Below are positions 3,553 through 57,381 of a DNA stretch of 64,000 nt, in pieces (within the stretch, counting starts at the first letter, position 1; each line of letters opens with the position of its first letter). The stretch is taken from assembly GCA_028285585.1 (NCBI GenBank), contig JANQOU010000003.1:1-64000 (forward strand). Reading direction: 5' to 3'. Position numbers and translations under genes: made by a program. The stretch is from Acidimicrobiia bacterium (GTDB taxonomy: Bacteria; Actinomycetota; Acidimicrobiia; Spongiisociales; ZC4RG35). The notes under the pieces are model-generated. The model ran no database searches and was not told the DNA's origin. It was given only the letters and a program-made list of their open reading frames with translations.

Positions 3553-4302
3553 TCACCGACCCAGCCGTTTACGTAATTCCCAGAACGACCTGTTTCTCTG
3601 TGCCATGTCGAACCATCTCGAAGTCTTGGCCGCGAACAGCCGGGGGGTGATGTGGCTGTAGATGCCGACTCGATGCAGAGTGTGCCGTGTCTCCGTGATG
3701 TGACGGTTGGGTGTCACCACCGCCGCCGAGTATCCGGCTTTGTCCACCAGACGGAGCGTTGTCTCGTCGAAGTCACCGGCCGGGTAACAAAAGGTTGTGA
3801 TCTCGACGCCGAGGTGCTTCTCTAGATTGTCTTTCGATCGGCTTATCTGGCCGTACGCTGCCGACTCGTCGAGTTGCGAGAGCATCGGGTGGGTGAGGGT
3901 GTGGGATCCATATGTGAACACCCCGGCCTCCATCCCCGCATGGAGCTGATTCGTAGTCATGTGGAGATCCAGCTCGTCAAATCCCCCTGGACCGGTTTCC
4001 AGCCAAGGAAAGGGCTGGTCGCTGTCGATCATGGAGCTGACCAGATAGACCGTGGCTTGCAGCCCGAGATCCTTCAGAATCGGGAGAGCATGGGAATGGT
4101 TGTCTTGGTAGCCGTCGTCAAAGGTGATAGCGAAGGAGCGATCGCTCACGTGGTCGAGGCCATCGGCTACGGCGTCCTCGAGAACGATGTTTGCCCAACC
4201 CCTGTCGAGCAGCGTTTCCAGATGAGAGCGCAGGGTCTCCGGAGAAACGGATAATCCGTCGCGCACTTCCGGGTTCACGCGGTGGTAGGCGAGTATCAGC
4301 AT
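3553..4302 (-). CDS. Polysaccharide deacetylase family protein (start moved to MLILAYHRV)
   Basis: LAYHRVNPEV, FAITFDDGYQDN, SHTLTHPML, FCYPAGDFD NodB motifs; ORF-track start at 4443 would overlap the divergent CDS. Confidence 0.85.
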   Translation of the reverse strand: MLILAYHRVNPEVRDGLSVSPETLRSHLETLLDRGWANIVLEDAVADGLDHVSDRSFAITFDDGYQDNHSHALPILKDLGLQATVYLVSSMIDSDQPFPWLETGPGGFDELDLHMTTNQLHAGMEAGVFTYGSHTLTHPMLSQLDESAAYGQISRSKDNLEKHLGVEITTFCYPAGDFDETTLRLVDKAGYSAAVVTPNRHITETRHTLHRVGIYSHITPRLFAAKTSRWFDMAQRNRSFWELRKRLGR

Positions 4303-24652: not shown

Positions 24653-25780
24653 ATGTCACGATGTGCGTTTAGTCGTCTCTTGGAGTTATGGGCGAATGGC
24701 TTACTACGGTTTGTTGATCGGATGAGATCCCGGATCCCAATCGCCTCACCCGGCCCGAAGCGCCTGTTGCTTGGGGTGCTCGCAACCACTGCCCTGTTGA
24801 TCGTGTCGTCGCTGCCGGTAGCCGGTCAGATTGCGGCGGTGCCCGGCTCGATAGCGTCGATCGGCTGCTCCAACACGCATCAAGCAGTCGAAGGATATTT
24901 GCGGTTCTCGTCGCGAGATTCACTTGCGAACACCGCCCAAGGATCACAGGCGATGGCCGAGTGGGCCAACACACCGGACCCTTGGGAGCTGTATTTGGGG
25001 GAGAGGCCGGCTGCCGGCTACACAGCTGTCTGGCTGAACTTGTGTGAGCGGATCGGCACTGGTCTCACCGTGGAGAACACCGAGGCGGTGCTTGCCCAGA
25101 TCTGGCAGCACGACCCGGATGCCGATGTCTATATCTCGCCGCTCAACTTCTATGTGGAGGAAACGTGTGCGGCCACCGGTGGCAACACGATCTCGAATCA
25201 GGGAGCCGCAGTGGCGGACGCCATGACCGGGAAGTATCCCCTGGTGCGACGAGGGCCGGATCTCGGACCAATGGGCCCTGAGGTCCTCAGGGACGACTTC
25301 TGCCACCTTTCCAATTCCGGCACGCGTTATGCCGGTGCCCAGCTTATGGAGTTCTTTGACGGCGTCCCTCTCTCACCCACCACGACAGAGCCGGACGGCG
25401 AGACGACGAGCACCACGGCACACACCGGATCGATTACGTCGGTTGCGACATCGTCGACCTCGACGACTTCGAGCACATCCACCACCTCTTCGAGCACGTC
25501 CACGACGTCGACCACGGTGGTGTCGTCCGTATCTTCTGCGACTGCATTCTCCCCATCGACAGCTGTTGTTCCCGGGCTTGCACCTTCGGAGCCCGGCGAA
25601 GCCGGGCCGACCGACATAGGTTCGACCAAGCCACTTGACAGCCGCCGGCCAAGCTGGTTCTTCTATCTGTTGGCGGCCGTCGGGGCAGCCGGCTTGGGTT
25701 ACGTGGGCCGGCGGCGATTGGGCAGAGGCCAGGATGATGCCGATGTGACACGGGAGGGGACAGATGAGCCAAAGACCTGA
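24653..25780 (+). CDS. Secreted/surface protein: SGNH-like domain, Ser/Thr-rich stalk and C-terminal TM anchor
   Basis: Hydrophobic N-term, GCSNTH and DDFCHLSNSG, long TTEPDGETTSTT...STSTTSSSTSTTSTT stretch, WFFYLLAAVGAAGLGYVGRRRLGRG. Confidence 0.65.
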   Translation: MSRCAFSRLLELWANGLLRFVDRMRSRIPIASPGPKRLLLGVLATTALLIVSSLPVAGQIAAVPGSIASIGCSNTHQAVEGYLRFSSRDSLANTAQGSQAMAEWANTPDPWELYLGERPAAGYTAVWLNLCERIGTGLTVENTEAVLAQIWQHDPDADVYISPLNFYVEETCAATGGNTISNQGAAVADAMTGKYPLVRRGPDLGPMGPEVLRDDFCHLSNSGTRYAGAQLMEFFDGVPLSPTTTEPDGETTSTTAHTGSITSVATSSTSTTSSTSTTSSSTSTTSTTVVSSVSSATAFSPSTAVVPGLAPSEPGEAGPTDIGSTKPLDSRRPSWFFYLLAAVGAAGLGYVGRRRLGRGQDDADVTREGTDEPKT

Positions 25781-27734: not shown

Positions 27735-29273
27735 TCAGCAGTCGGAGCCGTCGATGACGACGCGTGTCCCTGCTTTCACCGACTGATACTGGATGTCTCC
27801 ACAACTCAGCCCGGTGTTGTTCAGGTAGTAGGTACCTGCGATGTCGCCGGTGCCGTTGTTCACGATGAAGGTACCGATCGAGACGTTCTCGAACAGTATC
27901 GAGTTGCCTTCGGCGATCTTATTGTGCCTCCCGGTCGTGACCGTCCCGATCGACGAGTCGTGCACGCTGTAACCCAATGCGATGGCTTCCATGTACGAAA
28001 CGTCGATGTTTCGGTAGGTGTAGGAGTTGGAGTAGGCACCATGGTCGACACCATCGCCATTGAATCCGGTGATGACATGGTCCCTCTCCGTGTTCTGCCA
28101 GACGAAGATGCCATGGCAATCTGGTGAAGAGGACCTGTTGTTGGTGAAGGTCCAGACACTTCCGCCGGCGTTTTGGTTGGCGGCCTCCGGCCATTGGTAC
28201 CCGGCGCAATCCTTGCCACCTCTTACATCGAGTGCTGCCGAGTTCTTGACCACGTTGCCCGAGCCCGCGCCAAGGGTGAAGCCTGCCACGCGATGGCCGT
28301 CTGAGCCCTGACCCGGGTTCACCTTGGCGGCGAGGGCATGGTCGAAGACGGTGTCATTCGAGTTGTCGGCGGTGCATGTCTTCTTTCGCCCGGAGCAGTT
28401 GTTGGTTCCAGGCGGGTCCCACCAATAGGCACTGTCATTGATGTTCCATGCGATCGTGTTCTTGAAGGTGATGCCGTGTGATCCGTGCGGCACGAATGCA
28501 TGGTTCTTCCCGTTGACCACGACAACCCCCTCGACGATCGTGCCGCGAGTGCTGTCTCCGTTCAGATGAAAGTGAACCGGGTAGTCACCAAGGACGCCCC
28601 CGTTCCCCGAATTCGACACGGTGAAGTACTTGAGGGTCGATTTGCCCGACGCCTTGTGGAACATGATTCGGCGCAGATTGTCGAAGGTGATGTCCCGAGT
28701 GAGGTTGGCGTTTGAACCGTTTCCGGACCATGTAGACACCTTGGTGCCTTGAAAGTCGGCCTTGCCGCCGTTCATGAACATGATCTGATACCCGTTGCCG
28801 TTCACGGTCACGCCCGGTCTGGCGACGAGAGTTCCCCCGTTCACCATGAGGTCGCCCTTGAGGTTGACCGTTCCCTGGAGAGTGGCGGTCCCGGTCACGG
28901 TGCATGGACACGCATCACCGGTGATGGTGCCTCCCGTTGCGGTGGGGGCCGCCGTAGTGGTGGTAGCCGGTCCCTGGTCGCTGGTGGTTGGTTGAGCGGC
29001 GGTTGTCGTTGTTTCCACCGCGGTGGTAGTCGTCACCTCTGCGATCGTGTCTTCGGTGGGTCTGGGCCCCGAGGTGCCCGTGACATCCGACCGACGTTCA
29101 AAGGGGTTGTCCGTTGTGTCTGACCCCAAAGCCGCCAACTTTGGTGCCACCTCCCGTTCCGCCCGAGGTGTGTCTGCCTCATTACCCCATGGCAGCATTC
29201 CTGGGAATGCCACCGCGGCCACTGGTATGACCAGGACACTGAGGCCAAGTAGCGCTCGGTAGAACAAATTCAC
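27735..29273 (-). CDS. Secreted right-handed beta-helix protein with Thr-rich linker
   Basis: Signal-like N-term, TTTTAVETTTTAAQPTTS linker, repeated Gly/Asn/Val rungs (TLVARPGVTVNGNGYQI..., VEGVVVVNGKNHAFV), YPVHFHLNGD motif. Confidence 0.7.
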   Translation of the reverse strand: MNLFYRALLGLSVLVIPVAAVAFPGMLPWGNEADTPRAEREVAPKLAALGSDTTDNPFERRSDVTGTSGPRPTEDTIAEVTTTTAVETTTTAAQPTTSDQGPATTTTAAPTATGGTITGDACPCTVTGTATLQGTVNLKGDLMVNGGTLVARPGVTVNGNGYQIMFMNGGKADFQGTKVSTWSGNGSNANLTRDITFDNLRRIMFHKASGKSTLKYFTVSNSGNGGVLGDYPVHFHLNGDSTRGTIVEGVVVVNGKNHAFVPHGSHGITFKNTIAWNINDSAYWWDPPGTNNCSGRKKTCTADNSNDTVFDHALAAKVNPGQGSDGHRVAGFTLGAGSGNVVKNSAALDVRGGKDCAGYQWPEAANQNAGGSVWTFTNNRSSSPDCHGIFVWQNTERDHVITGFNGDGVDHGAYSNSYTYRNIDVSYMEAIALGYSVHDSSIGTVTTGRHNKIAEGNSILFENVSIGTFIVNNGTGDIAGTYYLNNTGLSCGDIQYQSVKAGTRVVIDGSDC

Positions 29274-32497: not shown

Positions 32498-33613
32498 ATG
32501 GATCGCATCTACCTGTCGCCGCCGGACGTGGGCGCCCACGACTTATCGGCGCTGAGTCGTGCGTTCGACAGTGGCTGGATAGCACCGTTGGGCGAGGAGG
32601 TAGACGCTTTTGAGCAGGAGCTGGCTGCCGCCACGGGAAGGGGCCATGGAGTAGCCCTCTCCAGCGGGACCGCAGCTCTCCACCTCAGCTTGCTCATGGC
32701 CGGCGTCGGAGCAGGCGACAAAGTGGCCGTGTCGAGCTTGACCTTTGCAGCGACGGCAAACGCTATCTCTTATCTGGGTGCGGAGCCGGTGTTCATCGAC
32801 AGTGAGATGGATAGCTGGAACATGGATCCGCGACTGCTGGCCGAGGCTCTGGCTGTCGAGGACATAGCGGCTTGCGTGCCTGTTGACATCTACGGTCAGA
32901 TGGCTGACTACCCACGGATCGAAGAGCTATGTCGTGATCACGACGTTCCGCTGATCGAGGACGCTGCGGAGGCTCTGGGCGCGACCCTGCATGGTTTCCC
33001 AGCGGGCAGTGCGGGCGTGATGGCTGCCCTGTCGTTCAACGGAAACAAGATCATCACGACCAGCGGCGGCGGTGCCATCGTGACGGACGACATCGACCTT
33101 GCAGAGCGAGCTCGATGGCTGGCGAGCCAGGCCCGGGAGCCCGCTCCTCACTACGAGCACACCACCGTCGGCTACAACTATCGGCTGTCCAATCTGCTTG
33201 CCGCTCTCGGCAGGTCGCAACTTGCAGACCTGGCGCGGCGCGTAGATGTGAGGCGGAGCCACAACACGGCTTACCGGGAAGCCCTTGAAGCCACGAAGGG
33301 CGTCACCTTCATGCCGGAGGCGGACGGTTCCCGCGCGACCTTCTGGCTCACTTGCGTCCTGATAGACCCATCGACCGGAGTCACCAGTGAAGAGGCGAGG
33401 ATGCACCTCGAAGCCATGGGCATCGAGGCCCGTCCCGTTTGGAAGCCGATGCATCTCCAGCCGGTGTTCAGCCGATACAAGACCTATGGGGGAGATGTTT
33501 CTGCGTCGCTGTTCGAGACCGGCCTATGCCTCCCCTCTGGCTCGACCCTCGGACCAGATGACCGCGACCGGGTCATCAACGGATTGTTGTCTGTCCTTTC
33601 CGGCGGCCGCTGA
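32498..33613 (+). CDS. DegT/DnrJ/EryC1/StrS family PLP-dependent sugar aminotransferase
   Basis: MDRIYLSPPDVG, LSSGTAALHLSLLMAGVGAGDKVAVSSLTFAATANAI, SFNGNKIITTSGGGAIV. Confidence 0.93.
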   Translation: MDRIYLSPPDVGAHDLSALSRAFDSGWIAPLGEEVDAFEQELAAATGRGHGVALSSGTAALHLSLLMAGVGAGDKVAVSSLTFAATANAISYLGAEPVFIDSEMDSWNMDPRLLAEALAVEDIAACVPVDIYGQMADYPRIEELCRDHDVPLIEDAAEALGATLHGFPAGSAGVMAALSFNGNKIITTSGGGAIVTDDIDLAERARWLASQAREPAPHYEHTTVGYNYRLSNLLAALGRSQLADLARRVDVRRSHNTAYREALEATKGVTFMPEADGSRATFWLTCVLIDPSTGVTSEEARMHLEAMGIEARPVWKPMHLQPVFSRYKTYGGDVSASLFETGLCLPSGSTLGPDDRDRVINGLLSVLSGGR

Positions 33614-34070: not shown

Positions 34071-35216
34071 ATGGATTTTGAGCTCGGTGAGGAGCAACGA
34101 GACTTTTTCTCCGCCGTTGTCGAGTTTGCTTCGAGAGAGATCGACCCAGGTCTCGAGGATCGCGAGAAGGCGGGAGGGTTCTCTCGTGAGTTGTGGGAGA
34201 AATGTGCTGAGTTCGGTATTCAGGGTCTCCCATTCCCTGTCGAGCACGGCGGGCAGGGCGCTGACGTTCTTACCACTGCGCTTGCCATGGAGGGCTTGGG
34301 CTTGGCCTGCCGTGACAACGGCCTGTTGTTTTCGCTGAACGCCCACATGTGGTCGGCGGCAATGCCGGTCAGTCGGTTCGGCGACGAATCCCAGAAGCAG
34401 CGCTACTTGAGAGGATTGTGTGACGGCTCGCTCATCGGTGTCCAGGGCATGACCGAGCCCGGTTCCGGCTCGGACGCTTTTGCACTCGAGACGACCGCGG
34501 AGTTGCGTGGCGACGGTTACATCCTCAACGGGTCCAAAACCTTCATCACCAATGCGCCTGTCGCCGACGTCTTTGTGGTCTTCGCGACTCTGGACAGATC
34601 GAAGGGCTGGGCCGGCTTGAGTGCCTTCATCGTCGAGAAGGGGTATCCCGGGTTAACCGTGGGGAAGCCGGTCGAGAAGATGGGGTTGAAGACGTCGCCG
34701 ATGGGAGATCTGTTCTTTGACGATTGCGAGGTTCCTGCCGAGAACCTGCTGGGACGGGCCGGGTCGGGGATGGTGATCTTCCAGCACTCGATCGATTGGG
34801 AGCGGAGTTTGATCCTCGCCAACTCGGTCGGTGCCGTGCAAAGGCAACTCAACGCTGCTGTCGAGTATGGAAAGGAACGGGAGCAATTTGGGCAGTCGAT
34901 AGGGAGTTTCCAGGCGGTTTCGCATCGTCTTGCCGACGTTCACGTCAGGTTGGAGGCAGCGCGGCTGTTGCTCTATCGACTGGCCTGGAAGTGGGACAAC
35001 GGCAAAGTCACCCCGGCCGACACATCACTGGTAAAGCTTTTCCTGAGTGAGAACCTGGTGGAATCGACACTCTCGGCGATGAAGACGTTTGGGGGGTCGG
35101 GATATCTCGTCGAAACCGGGATCGAGCGTGACTTGAGAGACGCCTTGGCGAGCCGGATCTACTCTGGGACCTCCGACATCCAGCGCAGCGTGATTGCCAG
35201 GGATCTGGGGCTGTGA
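34071..35216 (+). CDS. Acyl-CoA dehydrogenase family flavoprotein (possible carrier-protein-linked aminoacyl dehydrogenase)
   Basis: GMTEPGSGSDAFALETTA, GSKTFITNA, SIGSFQAVSHRLADV, YSGTSDIQRSVIARDLGL. Confidence 0.9.
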   Translation: MDFELGEEQRDFFSAVVEFASREIDPGLEDREKAGGFSRELWEKCAEFGIQGLPFPVEHGGQGADVLTTALAMEGLGLACRDNGLLFSLNAHMWSAAMPVSRFGDESQKQRYLRGLCDGSLIGVQGMTEPGSGSDAFALETTAELRGDGYILNGSKTFITNAPVADVFVVFATLDRSKGWAGLSAFIVEKGYPGLTVGKPVEKMGLKTSPMGDLFFDDCEVPAENLLGRAGSGMVIFQHSIDWERSLILANSVGAVQRQLNAAVEYGKEREQFGQSIGSFQAVSHRLADVHVRLEAARLLLYRLAWKWDNGKVTPADTSLVKLFLSENLVESTLSAMKTFGGSGYLVETGIERDLRDALASRIYSGTSDIQRSVIARDLGL

Positions 35217-36793
35217 GGGAGCCCTTCCTGATACACCACTATCTGGATCGTGCGGCAAGGGAACGGCCTGACGCCATCGCCGTTGTGGACGGCGAGAGAT
35301 CGATCACCTACCGAGAGCTTCACCGGCAGGCCGGGATTGTCGCCGCCCATCTCAAGGATGCAGGCGTGGAGGTTGGTGATCGAGTCGGTTTGCTCTTTGC
35401 CAAGTCCCTGGAGGCAGTTGTCTCCATCTACGGGGTATTGACCGCCGGTGCCGCGTACGTGCCCATGGACGCCGGTGCCCCCGCAAGTCGTCTCGGTTAC
35501 ATGGCGCAGAACTGCGGCATGCGGGTAGTCCTGTCCAGCGAGCGGAAGCAGTCGGCCTGGGAGGGAATTGCCGACTCCGCCGGGGGTGTCGTCGAGCACG
35601 TGCTGTCGTTTGGGGCTCCGTCCGTGTCAGGTGCCGGAGAGGCGAGTGTCGTTGCGATGGGTGACCTCTCGGATGCGAGGCTCGAGAGCTACGCGGCGCG
35701 GGTCATCCAGGACGACTTGGCCTACATTCTCTACACATCTGGGTCGACCGGAGAGCCGAAAGGTGTCATGCTGACGCACGAGAACTGTCGGTCTTTTGTC
35801 CAGTGGGCCATGGAGGAGTTTGGGGTCACGGCCGAGGATCGGTTGTCTTCCCATGCTCCCCTTCACTTCGACCTTTCGACGTTCGATCTGTTCGCAGCCG
35901 CTGCTGCCGGAGCCACGGTGGTGCTGGTGCCACCAAAAGTCTCGGTGTTTCCGGTCGAGGTCGCCCGGTTCATCGAGGCGAATCGAATATCGGTCTGGTA
36001 CTCGGTGCCCTCGATCCTCACGATGCTCACGGAGCGGGGTGGGTTGGAGCCAGGCGCTCTTCCCGGGTTGAGGACGATCCTGTTTGCCGGGGAAGTGTTC
36101 CCCACCAAGTACTTGTCCAGGCTGATGAGACTGCTTCCCCATGTGAGATTTGCGAACTTGTACGGGCCAACCGAGACGAACGTCTGCACCTGGTTCGAGG
36201 TGTCCGTGGCACCCGAAGAGTCGGACCCGCCGATATCGATAGGCAGAGCGATATCGAACGTGGAGACCTTCGTCGTCGGAGCAGATGGGCGTGAGGTCCA
36301 GCCCGGCGCGACCGGAGAGCTCTATGTCAGGGGCCCGACTGTCACCAAGGGGTATTGGGGGGAACCGGAGCGAACCGGGGAGAGGTTGGTTCCCAGCCCG
36401 TTGCAACGTCATCGCGGTGACCTGGTCTATGCAACAGGTGATCTGGTTGAGGAGATGCTCGACGGTTCCTATCGCTTCCTGGGCCGTCGCGACAATCAGA
36501 TCAAAAGCAGGGGTTATCGGATCGAACTCGGTGATATCGAAAGTGCCATCTCTGGGCATTCGTCGATCGTCGAATGCGCGGTTGTGGCCGTGCCGGACGA
36601 GATGATCACAAACCGGATCGAGTGTTTTGTGGCCGGTGACGACGGCCTCTCACCAGATGATCTGACGCGATTCTGCGCGGGCTTGCTTCCCAAGTACATG
36701 GTCCCAGAGACCTTCAGGGTCTTGAGTGAATTGCCCAAGACATCAACGGGGAAACTCGACCGTCAGGCCCTACTTCGTCTTGTCGGCGTCTAG
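35213..36793 (+). CDS. Stand-alone amino acid adenylation (AMP-ligase) enzyme, L-prolyl-AMP-ligase-like
   Basis: AYILYTSGSTGEPKGVMLTHEN, SSHAPLHFDLSTFDLF, NLYGPTETNVCTW, YATGDLV, FLGRRDNQIKSRGYRIELGDIE, PKTSTGKLDRQAL. Confidence 0.9.
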   Translation: MREPFLIHHYLDRAARERPDAIAVVDGERSITYRELHRQAGIVAAHLKDAGVEVGDRVGLLFAKSLEAVVSIYGVLTAGAAYVPMDAGAPASRLGYMAQNCGMRVVLSSERKQSAWEGIADSAGGVVEHVLSFGAPSVSGAGEASVVAMGDLSDARLESYAARVIQDDLAYILYTSGSTGEPKGVMLTHENCRSFVQWAMEEFGVTAEDRLSSHAPLHFDLSTFDLFAAAAAGATVVLVPPKVSVFPVEVARFIEANRISVWYSVPSILTMLTERGGLEPGALPGLRTILFAGEVFPTKYLSRLMRLLPHVRFANLYGPTETNVCTWFEVSVAPEESDPPISIGRAISNVETFVVGADGREVQPGATGELYVRGPTVTKGYWGEPERTGERLVPSPLQRHRGDLVYATGDLVEEMLDGSYRFLGRRDNQIKSRGYRIELGDIESAISGHSSIVECAVVAVPDEMITNRIECFVAGDDGLSPDDLTRFCAGLLPKYMVPETFRVLSELPKTSTGKLDRQALLRLVGV

Positions 36794-37030
36794 ACGCGAG
36801 TCAACGAGCCGGGAGAGCGCAGACACTGTCTCGAAGTTCTCAATGACGATGTCTTCCGGGTCGACGCTGATCTTGAACTCTTCTTCGATGAAGGCCACCA
36901 GCATGAAAATGCCGAGCGAATCGATGATCTCGTCCTCGATGAGGTTCGTTTCGTCATCGGGAACAGACTTCCCTTTCAGGAACTCCTTGCCGATGTGCTC
37001 ACGAATGATGTCTGAGTTCTGCCTGGACAC
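36770..37030 (-). CDS. Acyl/peptidyl carrier protein
   Basis: IEDEIIDSLGIFMLVAFIEEEFKISVDPEDI with phosphopantetheine-site Ser (DSLG). Confidence 0.88.
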   Translation of the reverse strand: MSRQNSDIIREHIGKEFLKGKSVPDDETNLIEDEIIDSLGIFMLVAFIEEEFKISVDPEDIVIENFETVSALSRLVDSRLDADKTK

Positions 37031-37081: not shown

Positions 37082-37912
37082 TCATCTGTCTGATGGCTCG
37101 TACCCGAGGGCTTCCATCTCTGCGGCCGTCACCTGCTCGATCAGGTCGAGGTTGCCGCTGCTGAAGAAGTCGGCGGCGGCCACGTCTCGATTGCGCCCGG
37201 CCGGCTGGAACTGGTAGTCGAGCCTGAGGTCGGCGGTTGGCAGCGGCTTGAGACCGACGGCCTCGGCTACCCGACCGATCTCGCCTGCCTTGTCCTCGAG
37301 GAAGTCCTCATATCTGCACAGGTGCAGGCGCGAAGCGTCTTCGAGGTACTTCCGAGCCACGTATGACCATCGCCGGGCCAATGCCTCTACTGGGCTCGAG
37401 CTCTCCAAGCCCATCCAGTTACCGTCGAGAATCCGTTGCCAGGCCGGCGAAAGGCCGGACCACACGTCGGGATCGAGCCTGCTCGTGTCGCCGGAAAGGG
37501 ACAGCCGGTCGAGGATGCTACGGATGTTGTCCCGTGGGTCGCGAATCACGAAGACGTACCGAGCCTCGGGGAGGCAGCTTCTGATCTCTGGGTAGACCAG
37601 TGTCAGGTTCGGGTGTTTGACGATATCCCGAGAGAAGCTGCGGCGGTGTCTCCTGACGAAACTGCACACGGGGAGGGAGCCCGTGACCACCGAGATCAGG
37701 TCTTGGCGCCGGATCTCGGTGTAGATGTCGAGAGTCGAAGTCGAGCCCGTGAACTCGGCGAGCAGCCCGGCTATCGCACTGGTTCCTGACTTCTGATTCC
37801 CGAGAACGACGACCGGGACTCGATTTGACCACCCCACCATATCGGCCAGGTCGTCCATGAGGTGGCGAGCTTTGCGCTTCGCCTCGACGCCTGTCGCGGA
37901 GACTTTCTTCAT
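37082..37912 (-). CDS. Sulfotransferase family protein
   Basis: VVLGNQKSGTSAIAGLLAEFTG; YVFVIRDPRDNIRSIL. Confidence 0.8.
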   Translation of the reverse strand: MKKVSATGVEAKRKARHLMDDLADMVGWSNRVPVVVLGNQKSGTSAIAGLLAEFTGSTSTLDIYTEIRRQDLISVVTGSLPVCSFVRRHRRSFSRDIVKHPNLTLVYPEIRSCLPEARYVFVIRDPRDNIRSILDRLSLSGDTSRLDPDVWSGLSPAWQRILDGNWMGLESSSPVEALARRWSYVARKYLEDASRLHLCRYEDFLEDKAGEIGRVAEAVGLKPLPTADLRLDYQFQPAGRNRDVAAADFFSSGNLDLIEQVTAAEMEALGYEPSDR

Positions 37913-38925
37913 GTCGGGCCTCCTGGCACCTCGTAGCCAAGACTCTCGAGAGTTGTCAAGAATCGTGAATCCAAGGACTGCAGGTCGTCGCTAGAAAGAG
38001 ATCTTCGGCCTTCTCCGACGCGACTTTCCGAGATGGCCTCACTGACCCGATCGTGGTGCTGGTGGGTCTCGGCGTCCCCGAGACCCTCAGTTCCTCCTCG
38101 GAGCATTGCCGGTTCGTAGGAGATAGCGAGAAAGCTGCAGAGAGCCTCAACGGTCTCCTCGGGTTTGGTGACCAGTGCCTCGTAGCGAACCTCATGGCAG
38201 CTTCTAGGGTTGCGAGCGGCAAAGCTCGCCACTGACTCGACTGCTGTGTGCCACCGTGTCGAGGCTTCTGCAACAGTGTCCAACAACCCGGAGGAGATGT
38301 AGGAGTGGACGACATCGACGCCATCGCGCACGATGTGGATGTATTTTGCTCCTGGGAAGACGCGATGAATTCGTTCGACGTTGTATGCGTTCAGAGGGGT
38401 CTTGTCCCCCCATCTAGTGGCGGGAACCCCGGTTTCTGAAGCATGAAACCGGTAGATGGCGTCGAGAATCGCAGCGAGGTTGCGTTTGGGCCGCGGCCAT
38501 TGCGCGATCTCGTTGTAGAGCGGCCTCAGTGTGATCCCAAAGGTCTCGAAGCCAGACCTGTACTCGAACGTCGAGAGGACGAGCTGAGTGAGGATGGGCC
38601 ACGGTTGGTGTGAGTTGCGCTCGTAGAGCTTGATGACCCGACCCAAGACGTAAGTCTCCGGTGGTATGTGCACGCCCGGCGAATTGTTGAGGATTCGGCG
38701 GAGCAGTGTGTTTCCCGACCGACCGGAGCCCACGATGAAGAAGGGTTCTGACCCGACCGTTCCGGAGAGCCTGTGGCCTCGATGGGTCAGCCCTCCGAAG
38801 GTTCGCACCAGCTTGGAGCTGATGGAGTCGAAAATCGGGTTTTCGCGGACCAGCTGGTGCGAGATCCGTCCTGCGAAGGAACGAGTGCTGCCCGGCTGAG
38901 GCGTGGATTTGGGCCGGTTGATCAA
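37909..38925 (-). CDS. Sulfotransferase family protein (start approximate, TTG)
   Basis: FIVGSGRSGNTLLRRILNNSPGVHIPPETY; YIHIVRDGVDVVHSYI; ORF-track start at 38991 would overlap next CDS. Confidence 0.8.
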   Translation of the reverse strand: MINRPKSTPQPGSTRSFAGRISHQLVRENPIFDSISSKLVRTFGGLTHRGHRLSGTVGSEPFFIVGSGRSGNTLLRRILNNSPGVHIPPETYVLGRVIKLYERNSHQPWPILTQLVLSTFEYRSGFETFGITLRPLYNEIAQWPRPKRNLAAILDAIYRFHASETGVPATRWGDKTPLNAYNVERIHRVFPGAKYIHIVRDGVDVVHSYISSGLLDTVAEASTRWHTAVESVASFAARNPRSCHEVRYEALVTKPEETVEALCSFLAISYEPAMLRGGTEGLGDAETHQHHDRVSEAISESRVGEGRRSLSSDDLQSLDSRFLTTLESLGYEVPGGPT

Positions 38926-40100
38926 CGGCTTCTCCTCACGGTTCGGGCGTAGATGGCTTCGACGTCGGCTGCAACACCTTGGAACGACCAAAGGGATCTG
39001 GCTGATCGGGCGATCTGCCTGCGATCGTCGTGGGTGTGCGCTTGATCCAACACGTCCAGCACCCCGGACGCGATCAGGTTGGGGTCGTCACCCACCACCG
39101 TCATGTGTGGGTTGGGGTGATCACCCACCACGCCACCGCAGTTTGTTGTGACAACTGGGAGGCCGGCAAGCTGCGCTTCGACGATCGAGACCCCAAAAGT
39201 CTCCGCCTCGGAGGTGTGCACGTACACATGGGATTCGGCCATGATCTTGGCCAGCTCAGATCTACTGAGTTTGCCCATGAAGCTCACATGGTCGGCCAAT
39301 CCCGTTTGCTCCGCCGTCTTCTTCAGATCTTCGGCTTGGCTGCCTTCGCCAATGACCACAAGGGTCGCCGTCGGCTTGACCTGGGCGACGCCGGCGAACG
39401 CCTCGAGGAGCAGCCCGACCCGCTTACGAGGGATCAGTGAGCCGACGTTGACAAGTTGCGGCTGGTCTGTCTGATCGGGTGACGGAGCGAACTCGGCACC
39501 ATCGACCGGATTGCCCACCACGATGAGATCTTCACCCAATCCGAGGTGCTCCATTCCTTGTCTCAGGTCTTCGCTGACCACGATGACCGCCTCCGCTCGG
39601 CGGATGACCTTCACCAGGTTTCTAACCCATGCCGGAGTGCGAGAACCAGCCTTCCAGACTGCATTGCTCGTGTGCTCGGTGTGGATGTAGGGGAGCCCCA
39701 GCCTCCGAGCCGCTGCCGGTACTCCGCCGGAGGCAGCGGCGAAGTGAGAGTGGATCACGTTCGGGTCTCCTTTGTTCTCCTTTATCCATCGGGAGGCTCG
39801 CATGATCGCTTGGGTCTGGAACATGTGGTTGATCGGGGCGAACACACGGCCAGGGCGCAGCTTGCGGCTTGGGGCTATGACCACCGTGAGGCCGTCGGAG
39901 TCGTCGGTGTAGAGACGTCGACCGATCACCGGCAGATCATCCATGCCGGGCACGCGATCCGTCCGCACCCCGATCACATGGGCAAAGGATGAGACAGCCT
40001 TTGCCCAATCGGTGATGAATGTTCGTGAGCCGACTCCCATCATCATGCAGATGACTGAAGTGTCGTTCGTGGTCATTGTTGAAGTCCGCCCCAAAAGCAC
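38922..40100 (-). CDS. Glycosyltransferase, GT4-type
   Basis: LVNVGSLIPRKRVGLLLEAFAGV; VYVHTSEAETFGVSIVEAQLAGLPVVTTNCGG. Confidence 0.92.
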   Translation of the reverse strand: MLLGRTSTMTTNDTSVICMMMGVGSRTFITDWAKAVSSFAHVIGVRTDRVPGMDDLPVIGRRLYTDDSDGLTVVIAPSRKLRPGRVFAPINHMFQTQAIMRASRWIKENKGDPNVIHSHFAAASGGVPAAARRLGLPYIHTEHTSNAVWKAGSRTPAWVRNLVKVIRRAEAVIVVSEDLRQGMEHLGLGEDLIVVGNPVDGAEFAPSPDQTDQPQLVNVGSLIPRKRVGLLLEAFAGVAQVKPTATLVVIGEGSQAEDLKKTAEQTGLADHVSFMGKLSRSELAKIMAESHVYVHTSEAETFGVSIVEAQLAGLPVVTTNCGGVVGDHPNPHMTVVGDDPNLIASGVLDVLDQAHTHDDRRQIARSARSLWSFQGVAADVEAIYARTVRRSR

Positions 40101-40245: not shown

Positions 40246-40977
40246 GTGAACAAGGTTGGGGGCAAGAGCCCGATTCGGGTTGTTGTTGTCGGTTCTCCAG
40301 ACGCGAGCGAAGTGCTTCTCGGTTCAACAGGATCGGGCGATGGAGTCTTCCAGAGCCTGTTGACGAGGGAGTATGCCGGGGCGTTCCGGTTGGAGGCAGT
40401 TCACATCCCGATGGGTGATGTGAGTGACTGGCTTGACCACCTGAACGTCGGCAGTTTTGACGTGGATGCACTGGCAGATTGCGATCTGTTGGTGTTCTCC
40501 GTGGCTTCGACTGTGCTTGGTGAAACGGTATCGACTGGTGGCCCAACCAAGGTCATTACCGAGAGTGGCCGGAGCAGGTTGACATCGTCAGAGCTCTTCG
40601 AGGACCGGCTTGGCGAGTTGGTCGTCCGACTGAAGACTCTCACCGATGCCCACATTCTCGTGTTCAATGCCTCCAGCCTCGATCCCACACAACGAGTCTT
40701 TGACTACTCGACGGTGAGCGAGACCGCCCTCGAGCGCATCCGGCGGGCAAACCTCGCTCTAATTCATGTGTCGATGGGCTACGGCATCTCGATAGTTGAC
40801 GTCGACCGCGTCGTCGCCGAGATGGGTGGGAGAGATCATCTCGACGGCCCCCTTCAATACTCGGAGGGTGTGATCGATGCCCTGGCTGAGGAACTGCTGG
40901 TCATCACTAGGGACATTGGTTTCTATGAGGAGCGACCACTTCTCGCTCAGCTCGGCCAGAAGGCAGCGTCCAACTGA
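40246..40977 (+). CDS. SGNH-hydrolase-like protein (weak)
   Basis: RVVVVGSPDASEVLLGS start, alternating alpha/beta pattern LLVFSVAST...ILVFNASSLD...LIHVSMGYGISIVDVDRVV. Confidence 0.5.
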   Translation: MNKVGGKSPIRVVVVGSPDASEVLLGSTGSGDGVFQSLLTREYAGAFRLEAVHIPMGDVSDWLDHLNVGSFDVDALADCDLLVFSVASTVLGETVSTGGPTKVITESGRSRLTSSELFEDRLGELVVRLKTLTDAHILVFNASSLDPTQRVFDYSTVSETALERIRRANLALIHVSMGYGISIVDVDRVVAEMGGRDHLDGPLQYSEGVIDALAEELLVITRDIGFYEERPLLAQLGQKAASN

Positions 40978-41393
40978 TGGAGCTTGCGCTCGTGCTTCCG
41001 CGAGTGGGTGGTCAGATCGAGGAGTTGACCGTCAAGAAGTGGCATTTGGCACCCGGCCAGGCAGTGGGCTTTGGTGATGACATCGTCGACGTCGAGGCGA
41101 ACTCCGCCCGGCATATGACGAGAGCCGCCCGGTTCGCAGGTCTCGAGTCCGGTGAGCAGGCTTTGACGACACCGGAGTTGGAGGAGCGTGGAGCTCGGGT
41201 CGGCTTTCGGCTGGTTGCCTCCGAATCCGGATATTTGAGGTCACTGACGGCCGAGACGGGTGACAAGGTGAAAGTGGGTGACACCATTGGCATTGTCACG
41301 TCCGCCCCGGACGAGGACTTCGGCATTGAAGGCGCTACGCCGAGCGAGTTCCGGGTAGTTGCCAATCTTCTCGATGGGTCGCGGGAAGCATGA
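40977..41393 (+). CDS. Biotinyl/lipoyl-domain-like protein lacking the usual modifiable lysine
   Basis: LPRVGGQIEELTVKKWHLAPGQAVGFGDDIVDVEAN ... VASESGYLRSLTAETGDKVKVGDTIGIV. Confidence 0.6.
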   Translation: MELALVLPRVGGQIEELTVKKWHLAPGQAVGFGDDIVDVEANSARHMTRAARFAGLESGEQALTTPELEERGARVGFRLVASESGYLRSLTAETGDKVKVGDTIGIVTSAPDEDFGIEGATPSEFRVVANLLDGSREA

Positions 41394-42484
41394 TGAGAAA
41401 GCTCAAAAGCCGGTTCCTCGGAAGTGTTCGCAAGCTCCTAGGTGAGGACTCGGGTTTTGAGCGCCTGCTTCATGACCTAACCAGGCGGATGTCCGCACGG
41501 CGGAAGGCGGGCACCGACACCGTTGTCGAGCAGAAGACTCGTTTGTGGGTTGCGGCTACCAAGGGCAAGAAGAACCGGCGGTTTGGTGGCGGCCAATACA
41601 CGGTGATGTGGTCCGACTCGCTACGAGATCCGCGTCGAACCGGTCTTTATGCGAAAGGCGGATGTGACCTTCCGGCGATCTTTGCCGCGGCTCCCAGACT
41701 TCAATCATCGATAGAAGGGGTCTGCGGTATGTATGTGGAGCCAGGGGGAGTATCCACCTCACGTTCGGACATACTTCTCCAGACGCTCGATATCGATTCG
41801 CCAAAGGCGGCGGCCTATCTTGTCGAAGAGCTTGCGCTTCCGACCCAGTACTTCGAGCCAAACCTCTTCCAGCCGCGTTTTACCATCCCGGGCTACGGAG
41901 CCCTCGGCGAATTCGAGAAGTCGGCTGTGGTGCTCTCGATCGGGGCCGATGTAGTGCGAACCGCTTATCGGCACCGCGAATCCGGACTGCTCGTCGACCC
42001 GGGAGGGTGGTGGCTGAACCAGGACATGGCATACGTGCTCGCCAACTTGGAGAAGGTCAACTGGTTCAAAGAGAACTTCGAGGATGTTGGGAAGGTGACG
42101 ATCGGTGAGTTTGGTGAGAACTTTGCGAAGATCATCCGCCTCCTGCAAGAGGATGTGACTCCGAACATCGCGGTGCTCAACCTGTTGGAAGTCGAGCCGG
42201 GTGATTCGACGCACACATATCAGCTTGTCAAAAGCCCGGCCATGGAGAGGCGGCGCACATTCAACTTGGCGCTTATGGAGATGTCTCGGGAGTTGCAATT
42301 CTCGGTGGTCGATGTGGATCGGATACTCAAAGAACAAGGAGTGGAGAGTCAGGTCGACTTCGCTCACTACACCCATGAGGCTTTTCAGCCACTGGCTCGC
42401 GAGATCAGCGCCGTTCTGGGTGAGATGGGCATCTTCCGAACCGGTTCGGAGTCGTCCTCCCCCGTGCGTGCGACAACCGGCTGA
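41390..42484 (+). CDS. SGNH-hydrolase-like protein (weak)
   Basis: VVLSIGADVVRTAYRHR, NIAVLNLLEVEPGD, FSVVDVDRIL, VDFAHYTHEAFQPLA. Confidence 0.5.
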   Translation: MMRKLKSRFLGSVRKLLGEDSGFERLLHDLTRRMSARRKAGTDTVVEQKTRLWVAATKGKKNRRFGGGQYTVMWSDSLRDPRRTGLYAKGGCDLPAIFAAAPRLQSSIEGVCGMYVEPGGVSTSRSDILLQTLDIDSPKAAAYLVEELALPTQYFEPNLFQPRFTIPGYGALGEFEKSAVVLSIGADVVRTAYRHRESGLLVDPGGWWLNQDMAYVLANLEKVNWFKENFEDVGKVTIGEFGENFAKIIRLLQEDVTPNIAVLNLLEVEPGDSTHTYQLVKSPAMERRRTFNLALMEMSRELQFSVVDVDRILKEQGVESQVDFAHYTHEAFQPLAREISAVLGEMGIFRTGSESSSPVRATTG

Positions 42485-54356: not shown

Positions 54357-54599
54357 TCAGTGCTGCAGGCCTGCCTTAGCCTCGACGAGTGTTTGGAGAG
54401 CTCCTACGTCTTCCAGGCGCGCGAATTCCTCACCTGCGAACTGGATCCCAAACTCCTGCTCGATCAGAAACATGAGTGTCACGTGGGCCAGTGAGTCCCA
54501 TTCTTCGATATCCGCCGCCGTAGTCGCGCTCGTTAAGACGAGATTGGGGTCATCGAGCACATCGCGAAAGATGTGCAGAAGACGATCATCGACTGTCAC
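54357..54599 (-). CDS. Acyl carrier protein
   Basis: TTAADIEEWDSLAHVTLMFLIEQEFGIQF with DSL phosphopantetheine site. Confidence 0.9.
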   Translation of the reverse strand: MTVDDRLLHIFRDVLDDPNLVLTSATTAADIEEWDSLAHVTLMFLIEQEFGIQFAGEEFARLEDVGALQTLVEAKAGLQH

Positions 54600-56524
54600 G
54601 AAACCTCCGTGGTTACGAACTGGCTGTCTATTGGGTTCTTGTCGAGCTCGTATGACCAGACCGTTTCTTCGGCCGTCTCCGACTCCAACTGAAACCCGAG
54701 TGATTCGTAGAGCCCTGCCACGAGGCCGTTGCGATCTGTGGGGCGGTACACGCCCCGCAACGACTTGTATCCCAGATCGCGTGCTCTTGCCGCCAGTTCT
54801 CCGACTAGAGCCACTTCGACAGTTCTGCCGATAACTCGGCAGCTCATCAGCAACGTGTCTATCTCCAACACTTGGCCTTCGTTCGTTCCCATGACGATGC
54901 CGACCAGGCCGTGGTCTGCGAAACGATCGCGCAGTTTGAGATAGAGATGAATCGACTCGGGACGCTCGATGATCTCTTGGACAGCGGCCTGGTTGTGACG
55001 GCGAGTCGTCAGATTGAACTGGTTGGTCTTGCCAATCAACTGAACGATGCGAGCAAGGTGGAAATCGTCGAACGGCTGGATTGTCGCTCTCATGTCGAGA
55101 CTACGTAGGAAGTCGTCGAGAGAGTCGGCCTTATCTCTGGCTTCAAAAGCCTGGTTGCGGGCGCGGTAGGACTCTGTACGTCGGTTGTCTTCGTCCGTGT
55201 AGCTGGCTGACTCGAAGTGTGGGTATCGGGCGAGGGTTTCGACATAACGCGATGGGTCCTCAGGGAGGACGATCACGTCGACCATCTCCAATGCTTGGCG
55301 CACCACTTCTCGTTCGGCAGGCTGGTCATCGACAAAAACCATGGCGTCGAGGCCAAGACCGAGGCTTTCCGCGATTCTTCGGATGTTCTCCGGCTTTGGT
55401 CGCCAGTTGGCCTGAAACGTTGCGATGTCATTGAGGGACAGCCGCATGTCCGGATGAGACTCAAAGGGTTTCCGGGCTGTGGCTTCGTCGTTCTTCGAGC
55501 AGACTGCCAGCACCACTCCGCGGTCTTTTAGGGAGAGCACGTACTCCTGAAAGGCGGCAAAGGCCTCACCATCGAACCCATGACCGATCCGGATCCCGTC
55601 CATCCCGTCCTCGCCGATGATTCCTCCCCACAGCGTCCCGTCCAGGTCGAGCACGAGGCACTTCCGGGTCATGCCGAGTTGGGCGCCGATCATGGCGCTG
55701 ATGTCTCTTGCCATCGTGGGTAGGGCATCGAAGGCGACCGCCTGTTTGGAGCGATGCCAATAACGATCGTCAAACCACCGGCCCTTTCCGAGGTTGGCGG
55801 CCAGTCGCTCACAATCGAGAATGGCGACTTCTTTGGGGGCCAGATCGCCGAGTTGCGAGTTAACGGCCGCGACCATCGAAGAACGAGATCCGGCAAGCTT
55901 CGAGGAGAGGTGCCCAAACGGGTCCTCCGGTCTCTTCACGAAGCTGGTGTGGATGACTGTAGCGTTCGTGTTGTCGGTGATCCGTGCCCACAGACCTTCC
56001 CAGCGAACCACTTCCTGTTTCACAGTCTCGTCAGGGCTCGGTGAGTAGTCGGGTAGCTCGAGATCACCTTCGTGCACGGCCAGCACGACCAGTTCGGGAT
56101 CGTGGGCGTAGAGGCCGCTCTCCTTATTCAGGATCTCCTGCTGGTACTGCCCGTAACCGGACTCGTAGATGTCGAGATGGACACCGCGCTCGGCGGCAGC
56201 GAGCCGAAGCAGATCGACGAGTTGGTCGGTGGTGTAGCTTCCGATCACGGCAAGTCGAGCACTACGTCGTGCGATTGGTGCGAACTCGGGATACAGGCGC
56301 TTGAGGATGCGTCCTGCTGCATCCCAAGATCGGTAGTCGAGACCTGACTTGACGACTTGGGCGCACCACTTGATTGCCTCTTTGGCCTCGTCGAGTTCCA
56401 CGTAGGCGCGAGCCACGCCTAGGCATGCAAGAGGAGATGGGATCTCTGTCAGCCGGGCAGCTTCGAGAGCGCTTTCGAGGGTAGCTCTCTTGCTATCGGT
56501 TTCTTGAGGTGCGGCCACGGTCAT
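54596..56524 (-). CDS. FkbH-like protein (HAD superfamily subfamily IIIC)
   Basis: CLVLDLDGTLWGGIIGEDGMDGIRIG, LAVCSKNDEATARKPFESHPDMRL, MVFVDDQPAEREVVRQAL; ATGA overlap with ACP. Confidence 0.93.
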   Translation of the reverse strand: MTVAAPQETDSKRATLESALEAARLTEIPSPLACLGVARAYVELDEAKEAIKWCAQVVKSGLDYRSWDAAGRILKRLYPEFAPIARRSARLAVIGSYTTDQLVDLLRLAAAERGVHLDIYESGYGQYQQEILNKESGLYAHDPELVVLAVHEGDLELPDYSPSPDETVKQEVVRWEGLWARITDNTNATVIHTSFVKRPEDPFGHLSSKLAGSRSSMVAAVNSQLGDLAPKEVAILDCERLAANLGKGRWFDDRYWHRSKQAVAFDALPTMARDISAMIGAQLGMTRKCLVLDLDGTLWGGIIGEDGMDGIRIGHGFDGEAFAAFQEYVLSLKDRGVVLAVCSKNDEATARKPFESHPDMRLSLNDIATFQANWRPKPENIRRIAESLGLGLDAMVFVDDQPAEREVVRQALEMVDVIVLPEDPSRYVETLARYPHFESASYTDEDNRRTESYRARNQAFEARDKADSLDDFLRSLDMRATIQPFDDFHLARIVQLIGKTNQFNLTTRRHNQAAVQEIIERPESIHLYLKLRDRFADHGLVGIVMGTNEGQVLEIDTLLMSCRVIGRTVEVALVGELAARARDLGYKSLRGVYRPTDRNGLVAGLYESLGFQLESETAEETVWSYELDKNPIDSQFVTTEVS

Positions 56525-57126
56525 CCGTCCGTTCTCGAAGCGTTGGACTTCATGTCAGCCCTTCTCTTTGTGTTCGGGGCATAAATCACTCTCGGTGAAT
56601 TGGTGACCACAGTTGCCCCTGGCGGGACGTCGGTATAGATCACAACGTTCGGGCTGATGCGAGCACCATCTCCGATGGTCACTTTGCCCAAGATCACCAC
56701 GCCAGGCCCGATTTGGACGTTGGCTCCGATTTTTGGAGCCTCTTCTCGGGTGACTCCCCGGCCGGCGCTTCCCATTGTGACGCTGTGCTGGATGACACAC
56801 CCGTCGCCGATCTCCGCGTAATGATGGATCACGATCCCTCCTTGATGGGGGAACATCACCCCCTCACCGAGGCGAGCCGAGCGATGGAGTTCTATCCCGT
56901 GGTTGTTGCGCACATACCGATGGGCGACGATGTAGATGAGATCGAAGGCTCGCCCTAGGATCTTGCGAGCCAAGGTGTCGCGTGGCCCATGCTGGGCCCA
57001 CACTCCAAACCGGTACATTGCGAGTGCTCGGAACCCCGGTCGTGTCCAGTCGCGTCGGTAGTTGTCGTATTCTTCGCTGAGAAGCGCTTTGAGCTCGCGG
57101 AACGACCAGGCTTCCGTTCGGGTCAT
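56521..57126 (-). CDS. Serine O-acetyltransferase-like hexapeptide-repeat protein
   Basis: IELHRSARLGEGVMFPHQGGIVIHHYAEIGDGCVIQHSVTMGS...PKIGANVQIGPGVVILGKVTIGDGARI; start moved to MTRTEAWSF. Confidence 0.9.
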   Translation of the reverse strand: MTRTEAWSFRELKALLSEEYDNYRRDWTRPGFRALAMYRFGVWAQHGPRDTLARKILGRAFDLIYIVAHRYVRNNHGIELHRSARLGEGVMFPHQGGIVIHHYAEIGDGCVIQHSVTMGSAGRGVTREEAPKIGANVQIGPGVVILGKVTIGDGARISPNVVIYTDVPPGATVVTNSPRVIYAPNTKRRADMKSNASRTDG

Positions 57127-57381
57127 GTCGAACACCAATCTACGGCCGTTGTAACACGGCGACATAAGGTGTTCACTTGATGGCCCCCATGTCCATTCAA
57201 CAGTTCCAAGCCCCCCTTGGCTGTTCAACATCCTATCGGCCTCTGGCCCATGTGCTAGAGGCGGTCAGCTCTTTTCAGCCCCGGTTTCGAGGCTGGCCGC
57301 CAGCTCGGCAGGGTTCCCTCCATCACATATCTGAACAAGGTGACGACCGAACAGCCTGGTGGCCGGAGGATCTGGCACGGG

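Follow-up and report, generated by a model that had tools for sequence, protein, structure and literature searches.

We found that three adjoining genes of an Acidimicrobiia bacterium, here called sg1, lip and sg2, are a real, conserved and hitherto undescribed gene set with a specific biochemical context. They lie at the edge of a polysaccharide cluster in the window, the whole stretch of 64,000 nucleotides that we analyzed (contig JANQOU010000003.1 of assembly GCA_028285585.1). The outer two genes encode SGNH-fold proteins, the middle one encodes a lipoyl-like protein that has lost the modifiable lysine, and genes for loading a carrier protein with L-proline are linked to the set and co-occur with it. 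We propose that the three proteins form a cytoplasmic three-subunit complex that would take an acyl group off the carrier protein and attach it to a polysaccharide precursor, a reading to which we give a little less than an even chance. A query of the literature for polysaccharide systems that combine SGNH, lipoyl and sulfotransferase proteins gave no paper.

A first-pass annotation of this DNA had noted three open reading frames in tight succession, and its coordinates for them were exact (Table 1). The sg1/lip junction is TGATG, with a 1-nt overlap, and the lip/sg2 junction is ATGATG, with a 4-nt overlap. Given these overlaps, co-transcription and translational coupling of sg1, lip and sg2 are almost certain. 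Hydropathy plots of all members of the trio were without a long hydrophobic segment (highest 19-residue Kyte-Doolittle mean, 1.81), and we therefore place the trio in the cytoplasm.

Table 1. Features of the three-gene set and of its neighbors in the window.
Feature	Position	Strand	Remarks
Prolyl-ACP-dehydrogenase-like flavoprotein	34071..35216	+	PDB 4irn prolyl-ACP dehydrogenase, 2e-120
Stand-alone L-proline adenylation enzyme	35213..36793	+	Code DLFYLALVCK; best single-domain PDB match PltF
Acyl/peptidyl carrier protein, DSL motif	36770..37030	-	Pfam PP-binding, 2.8e-5
Sulfotransferase	37909..38991	-	Pfam Sulfotransfer_3; relatives directly after sg2 in L050, L051, L052, L056
GT4 glycosyltransferase of the polysaccharide cluster	38922..40100	-	
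sg1 (gene 1)	40246..40977	+	243 aa; GTG start downstream of GGAGG; SGNH-fold putative pseudo-enzyme subunit
lip (gene 2)	40977..41393	+	138 aa; lysine-less lipoyl/biotinyl-like protein; Pfam Biotin_lipoyl and alignment of 13 homologues
lip, first lipoyl half, residues 1-43	40977..41105	+	Canonical modifiable Lys position is Ser43
lip, insert, residues 44-76	41106..41204	+	Replaces modification hairpin; ~33 extra residues between halves
lip, second lipoyl half, residues 77-108	41205..41300	+	Pfam stretch 79-105
sg2 (gene 3)	41390..42484	+	364 aa; SGNH fold, candidate acyltransferase subunit; AlphaFold and Foldseek
sg2, Cys92 codon, in GGCD	41663..41665	+	Nucleophile position, directly after first core strand (83-89 in model)
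sg2, Asp323-x-x-His326 codons, block V DFAH	42356..42367	+	Precedes C-terminal helix

The gene set recurs in related bacteria. One scan of genome contigs gave 12 further loci (L049 to L060), all in MAGs, ten titled Acidimicrobiia and two Actinobacteria; genes in these relatives were called by a simple codon-usage caller plus homology, on contigs that are short and incomplete. Six of the loci, like the window, have three separate genes (type A). The order is sg1-lip-sg2 in the window, L050, L051, L052, L054 and L056, and sg1-sg2-lip in L049. Five loci (L055, L057, L058, L059 and L060) have an sg1-lip fusion of ~330-400 aa followed by sg2 (type B). At L053, the contig end cuts into sg2. Positions 61-104 of L053 are Illumina adapter sequence at the end of the public MAG contig, an assembly artefact that runs into sg2.

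Co-occurrence of sg1, lip and sg2 was far above chance. The four type B genomes all hold type A as well (p 5e-6), and type B was never found without type A. Type B loci mostly lie amid housekeeping genes, and three of them (L055, L057 and L059) have a sulfotransferase close by. Thus a co-operating module, as the earlier annotation had supposed, is what the relatives have: the neighborhood check that it proposed found the three genes together elsewhere, and five loci carry genes 1 and 2 as a fusion. The set is also rare. Of the 138 genomes of the order, 8 carry sg2, and these belong to eight different genera; among 397 genomes sampled across the phylum, none except the window's own has it. A phylum-wide search with lip gave weak matches only, which we took for ordinary E2-type lipoyl proteins, and there were no relatives of lip in plasmids or viral contigs.

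The middle protein consists of two lipoyl/biotinyl halves, as had been read from its sequence, and matches Pfam Biotin_lipoyl (PF00364) in two stretches, with 29 bits against a gathering score of 22.1. Its first half is similar to the lipoyl domains of E2 proteins (NCBIfam PRK14875, 1.4e-10; PDB 2dnc). The ETDKA lysine turn is EANSA in the window copy, which puts Ser43 at the site of modification. The absence of a DKA or MKM lysine, also claimed at first, extends to the whole family: in the alignment, 13 of 13 homologues lack the modifiable lysine and have S, Q, E, D, N, G or T at this position, never K. About 40 extra residues had been noted at the modification hairpin. There is an insert at that place, of about 33 residues between the halves in the window; counted from the lysine turn, it has 35-41 residues in most type A proteins, 17 in L056 and 20-35 in type B. 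Its net charge ranges from -1 to +8 and it is basic in most members, the window copy being neutral. L052 has a second stand-alone lip (positions 3678-4118), directly after a sulfotransferase, besides the lip of its trio.

A model of the natural sg1-lip fusion of L057, made with 20 sequences, had a pLDDT of 89.9 and a pTM of 0.80. Foldseek matched its last part to E2 lipoyl domains (2dnc and 3crk) and its first part, corresponding to sg1, to SGNH hydrolases with probability 1.00. Lip has the fold and both half-motifs in common with the lipoyl/biotinyl domains of PF00364 and the barrel-sandwich domains of HlyD type. Unlike these, it is without the modifiable lysine, has a variable insert at the lysine hairpin, and is paired or fused with an SGNH protein.

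We found that sg2 also has an SGNH fold. An AlphaFold2 model made with 13 sequences (pLDDT 76, pTM 0.74) matched SGNH hydrolases and acyltransferases in the PDB (Axe2, TesA and others) with a Foldseek probability of 1.00, and OatA with 0.99. Sequence matches are weak: the window protein scored 14.7 bits against Pfam Lipase_GDSL_2, below the gathering score of 32.9, and matches to this family were sub-threshold in 11 of 13 sg2 homologues (best 5e-4). A search of PDB sequences with an sg2 profile found no relative. The weak SGNH features that had been pointed out in the two flanking proteins are thus signs of real SGNH folds, for sg1 by way of the fusion model.

We assigned the catalytic site of sg2 from the order of its motifs and from secondary structure. 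The block I Ser nucleophile is absent, and all 12 members that cover the position have Cys there. G90, C92 and D93 are conserved at 90% or more, and Cys92, Asp93, Asp323 and several Arg are nearly invariant. At block V, the Asp is invariant and the His is present in 11 of 13 members, including the window; the other two, L058 and L059, both type B, have Lys (DxxK). The Asn of the oxyanion hole (block III, placed by strand order in the model) is not conserved, and the residue before Asp187 is variable. From sequence and model, sg2 keeps a possible catalytic set of Cys92, Asp323 and usually His326.

Judged by profile comparison, sg1 and sg2 are paralogues. The fused sg1 family aligned with the sg2 family over the whole common length (E 5.6e-20) and with the separate sg1 proteins (E 8.7e-24), and the separate sg1 proteins align with the sg2 family too. 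The GGCD of sg2 is SPD or similar in sg1, so that there is no Cys or Ser at block I, and the DxxH motif is also missing. By its sequence, sg1 looks like a pseudo-enzyme. The early description of the flanking genes as two SGNH-like modification enzymes is therefore right about the fold and not about two independent enzymes, as the proteins are paralogues of which only sg2 keeps a possible catalytic set.

Three genes beside the cassette, missed in the first-pass annotation, make its guess of glycan acyl modification a specific hypothesis about the acyl group. The flavoprotein dehydrogenase has NCBIfam PigA as its closest family (446 bits, below the curated cut-off of 500). Its closest solved relative is 4irn, which we take to be AnaB of anatoxin biosynthesis, with a dehydroprolyl product; for this reason the product here could be dehydroprolyl instead of pyrrole. 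The ten code residues of the adenylation enzyme, read by motif alignment, match exactly the published consensus of stand-alone L-proline adenylation enzymes, L(L/F)YLALVC (PMC3874040). Orthologues of this ligase in L084, L085, L086, L087, L093 and L051 have the same code at the positions covered, whereas the code differs in more distant ligases of the order. LgrA had appeared as the best PDB match (459 bits). This score is the sum of two domains, the better of which gave 242 bits against 330 bits for PltF, which makes PltF the better guide, and LgrA was set aside. Taken together, the sequence evidence is strong for proline loading and makes oxidation of the prolyl group probable. Related adenylation enzymes with the code MPYTAQVC occur in L106 and L109, beside alpha/beta-hydrolase-like proteins, at loci that resemble exosortase-associated polysaccharide loci.

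Linkage of the proline genes to the cassette can be read in the window, L049, L054 and L051, the other type A contigs being too short. L049 has the dehydrogenase gene on the strand of lip, beginning 71 bp downstream of it; the adenylation enzyme comes next, and the carrier protein is encoded on the opposite strand. In L054, there is a 4-nt overlap between sg1 and the carrier-protein gene, and the dehydrogenase lies 1.5 kb away, while the ligase was found on a separate contig (L105). The distance from the cassette to the dehydrogenase in L051 is 6.8 kb. Among the 138 genomes of the order, a ligase with the proline code was present in 6 of 8 sg2 carriers and 3 of 130 others (Fisher p 2.6e-7). 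For the dehydrogenase, counted from 57% identity upward, the figures were 6 of 8 carriers and 1 of 130 others (Fisher p 2.3e-8). These p-values are optimistic because the genomes are related, yet the carriers belong to eight genera and the genes are rare and patchy.

Based on these results, we suggest the following sequence of steps. The adenylation enzyme would load the carrier protein with L-proline, and the dehydrogenase would oxidize the prolyl group to a dehydroprolyl or pyrrole-2-carboxyl thioester. Cys92 of sg2, helped by Asp323 and His326, would then take the acyl group and hand it on to a sugar, at one of its hydroxyl or amino groups. As a catalytically dead paralogue of sg2, sg1 might complete the fold or the substrate site of the complex. 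The lysine-less lipoyl fold of lip may be a fixed adaptor that joins sg1 and sg2 or docks the acidic carrier protein. Apart from the natural sg1-lip fusions, we infer the physical complex, and likewise the acyl transfer, its acceptor and the role of lip.

Several points weigh against acyl transfer: the type B loci have neither adenylation enzyme nor carrier protein alongside, the PigA score is below its cut-off, sg2 deviates at blocks III and V, and the carriers share ancestry. Three genomes also depart from the pattern. G709, an incomplete MAG, has sg2 and no close orthologue of the ligase; G715, also incomplete, has a ligase with the code MPYTAQVC instead of the proline code; and G719 has the whole proline set and no cassette. 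Type B may draw on carriers produced elsewhere, or have another function.

The closest known systems each share part of this arrangement. In clorobiocin biosynthesis, CloN4, CloN5 and CloN3 form pyrrole-2-carboxyl on a carrier protein and CloN7 moves it to a deoxysugar (PMC11218499). The genes near the cassette share with the CloN system of clorobiocin and coumermycin a stand-alone L-proline adenylation enzyme and a carrier protein, and have a prolyl-ACP-dehydrogenase-like flavoprotein where that system has a prolyl dehydrogenase. The acyl group of clorobiocin finishes on a hydroxyl of a sugar, parallel to our proposal. Here, however, the genes are in a polysaccharide cluster, and in the place of CloN7 the candidate for the transferase is a pair of SGNH-fold proteins joined by a lipoyl-like subunit. 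In the Dlt and Pat systems, SGNH proteins act in polymer acylation and require an MBOAT protein (PMC12148441). Like DltB-DltD and PatA-PatB, the genes described here combine an aminoacyl carrier protein with a candidate SGNH-fold transferase for an envelope polymer. In contrast to them, the trio has no membrane segments, has Cys for Ser, and includes pseudo-enzyme and lipoyl-like subunits. We found no match to MBOAT (PF03062) in the window's own genome, which is 97% complete; on this ground and for the lack of membrane segments, we rejected membership of the trio in the MBOAT-SGNH systems. WcbI of capsule biosynthesis in B. pseudomallei has a Cys at the end of strand 1, is thought to need a partner protein, and was described as having a different, new fold (PMC4104973). 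Like sg2, it is a protein of a polysaccharide cluster with Cys in that place; the WcbI Pfam family matched none of the 13 sg2 members.

Our results might also indicate that sg2 moves the acyl group between carriers, or edits it. Shuttles of the CmaE type are known (PMC8748450), and a Cys at the nucleophile position and linkage to a carrier protein would suit a shuttle or an editing thioesterase for the prolyl or pyrrolyl carrier protein (a CmaE/CloN2-like role), with another enzyme transferring the group to the glycan. Several genomes do have more than one carrier-protein gene (G625, in L054 and L105; G695, in L106). This reading leaves the second SGNH paralogue and the lipoyl-like subunit unexplained, and in G719 the proline set does without the cassette; we consider it unlikely. 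A link to sulfation is distinctly unlikely. The trio might then be a partner of the adjacent sulfotransferase, perhaps a complex that docks it or presents its substrate, and the proline genes would be mere co-residents of the cluster. A Sulfotransfer_3 protein directly follows sg2 in four loci, one is 1.3 kb from sg1 in the window, and others are near three type B cassettes, but there is none in the 17 kb of L054 and none adjoining the trio in L049, and sulfotransferases are numerous in such clusters anyway.

That the trio is non-enzymatic, a structural or regulatory complex for polysaccharide assembly, is more doubtful again. It would fit an sg1 without catalytic residues, a lip without its lysine, and an sg2 that is without the block III Asn and in two cases has Lys for the block V His; the near-invariance of Cys92, Asp93, Asp323 and several Arg in sg2 argues against it. 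HlyD-type membrane fusion proteins also have an insert between lipoyl halves. Lip has its insert at the same place and four members gave weak matches to HlyD_D23, as expected if lip were a barrel-sandwich adaptor of an export machine. However, the best matches of lip are E2 lipoyl domains, it has no membrane segment, and the insert is short in L056 and the fusions. From the E2 matches and hydropathy, we rejected membership in the HlyD-type adaptors, and a role of this kind is scarcely credible.

We return to transfer from the carrier protein to a polysaccharide precursor as the preferred reading. In its fullest form, an SGNH transferase with a Cys nucleophile, a paralogue of it that is a pseudo-enzyme, and a lipoyl domain without lysine would make up a new glycan acylation machine in one cytoplasmic complex, giving the exopolysaccharide carrier-delivered pyrrole-2-carboxyl or dehydroprolyl groups. 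This full form is on the doubtful side. If true, it would bring to bacterial polysaccharides a natural-product route in which carrier-bound proline becomes pyrrole, add a second way of polymer acylation by aminoacyl carrier proteins, one without MBOAT, and provide a role for a lipoyl domain lacking its lysine. It would also give a testable function to sg1 and sg2, two families without a Pfam or NCBIfam model.

The polysaccharide cluster itself includes glycosyltransferases, a chain-length determinant, sugar-nucleotide enzymes, polysaccharide deacetylases and three sulfotransferases, several of them named by eye. A LegC-like sugar aminotransferase (window 32498-33613) precedes the dehydrogenase and ligase genes and shares their strand, and an amino sugar could be the acyl acceptor in the window; no homologue of this aminotransferase was found in the related loci L049-L060. 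An FkbH-type protein (TIGR01686) adjoins a hexapeptide-repeat, serine-acetyltransferase-like protein (by eye) at 54596-57231. At 24653-25780, an apparently secreted protein has a Thr/Ser-rich stretch as well as the motifs GCSN and DDFCH, which look SGNH-like by eye, and its homologue at positions 10807-11610 of L059 adjoins the type B cassette. A CEMIP-type beta-helix protein is encoded at 27735-29273 (Pfam PF24606, 1.5e-9), and its homologues recur in the related clusters of L051, L053, L103, L105, L107 and L111.
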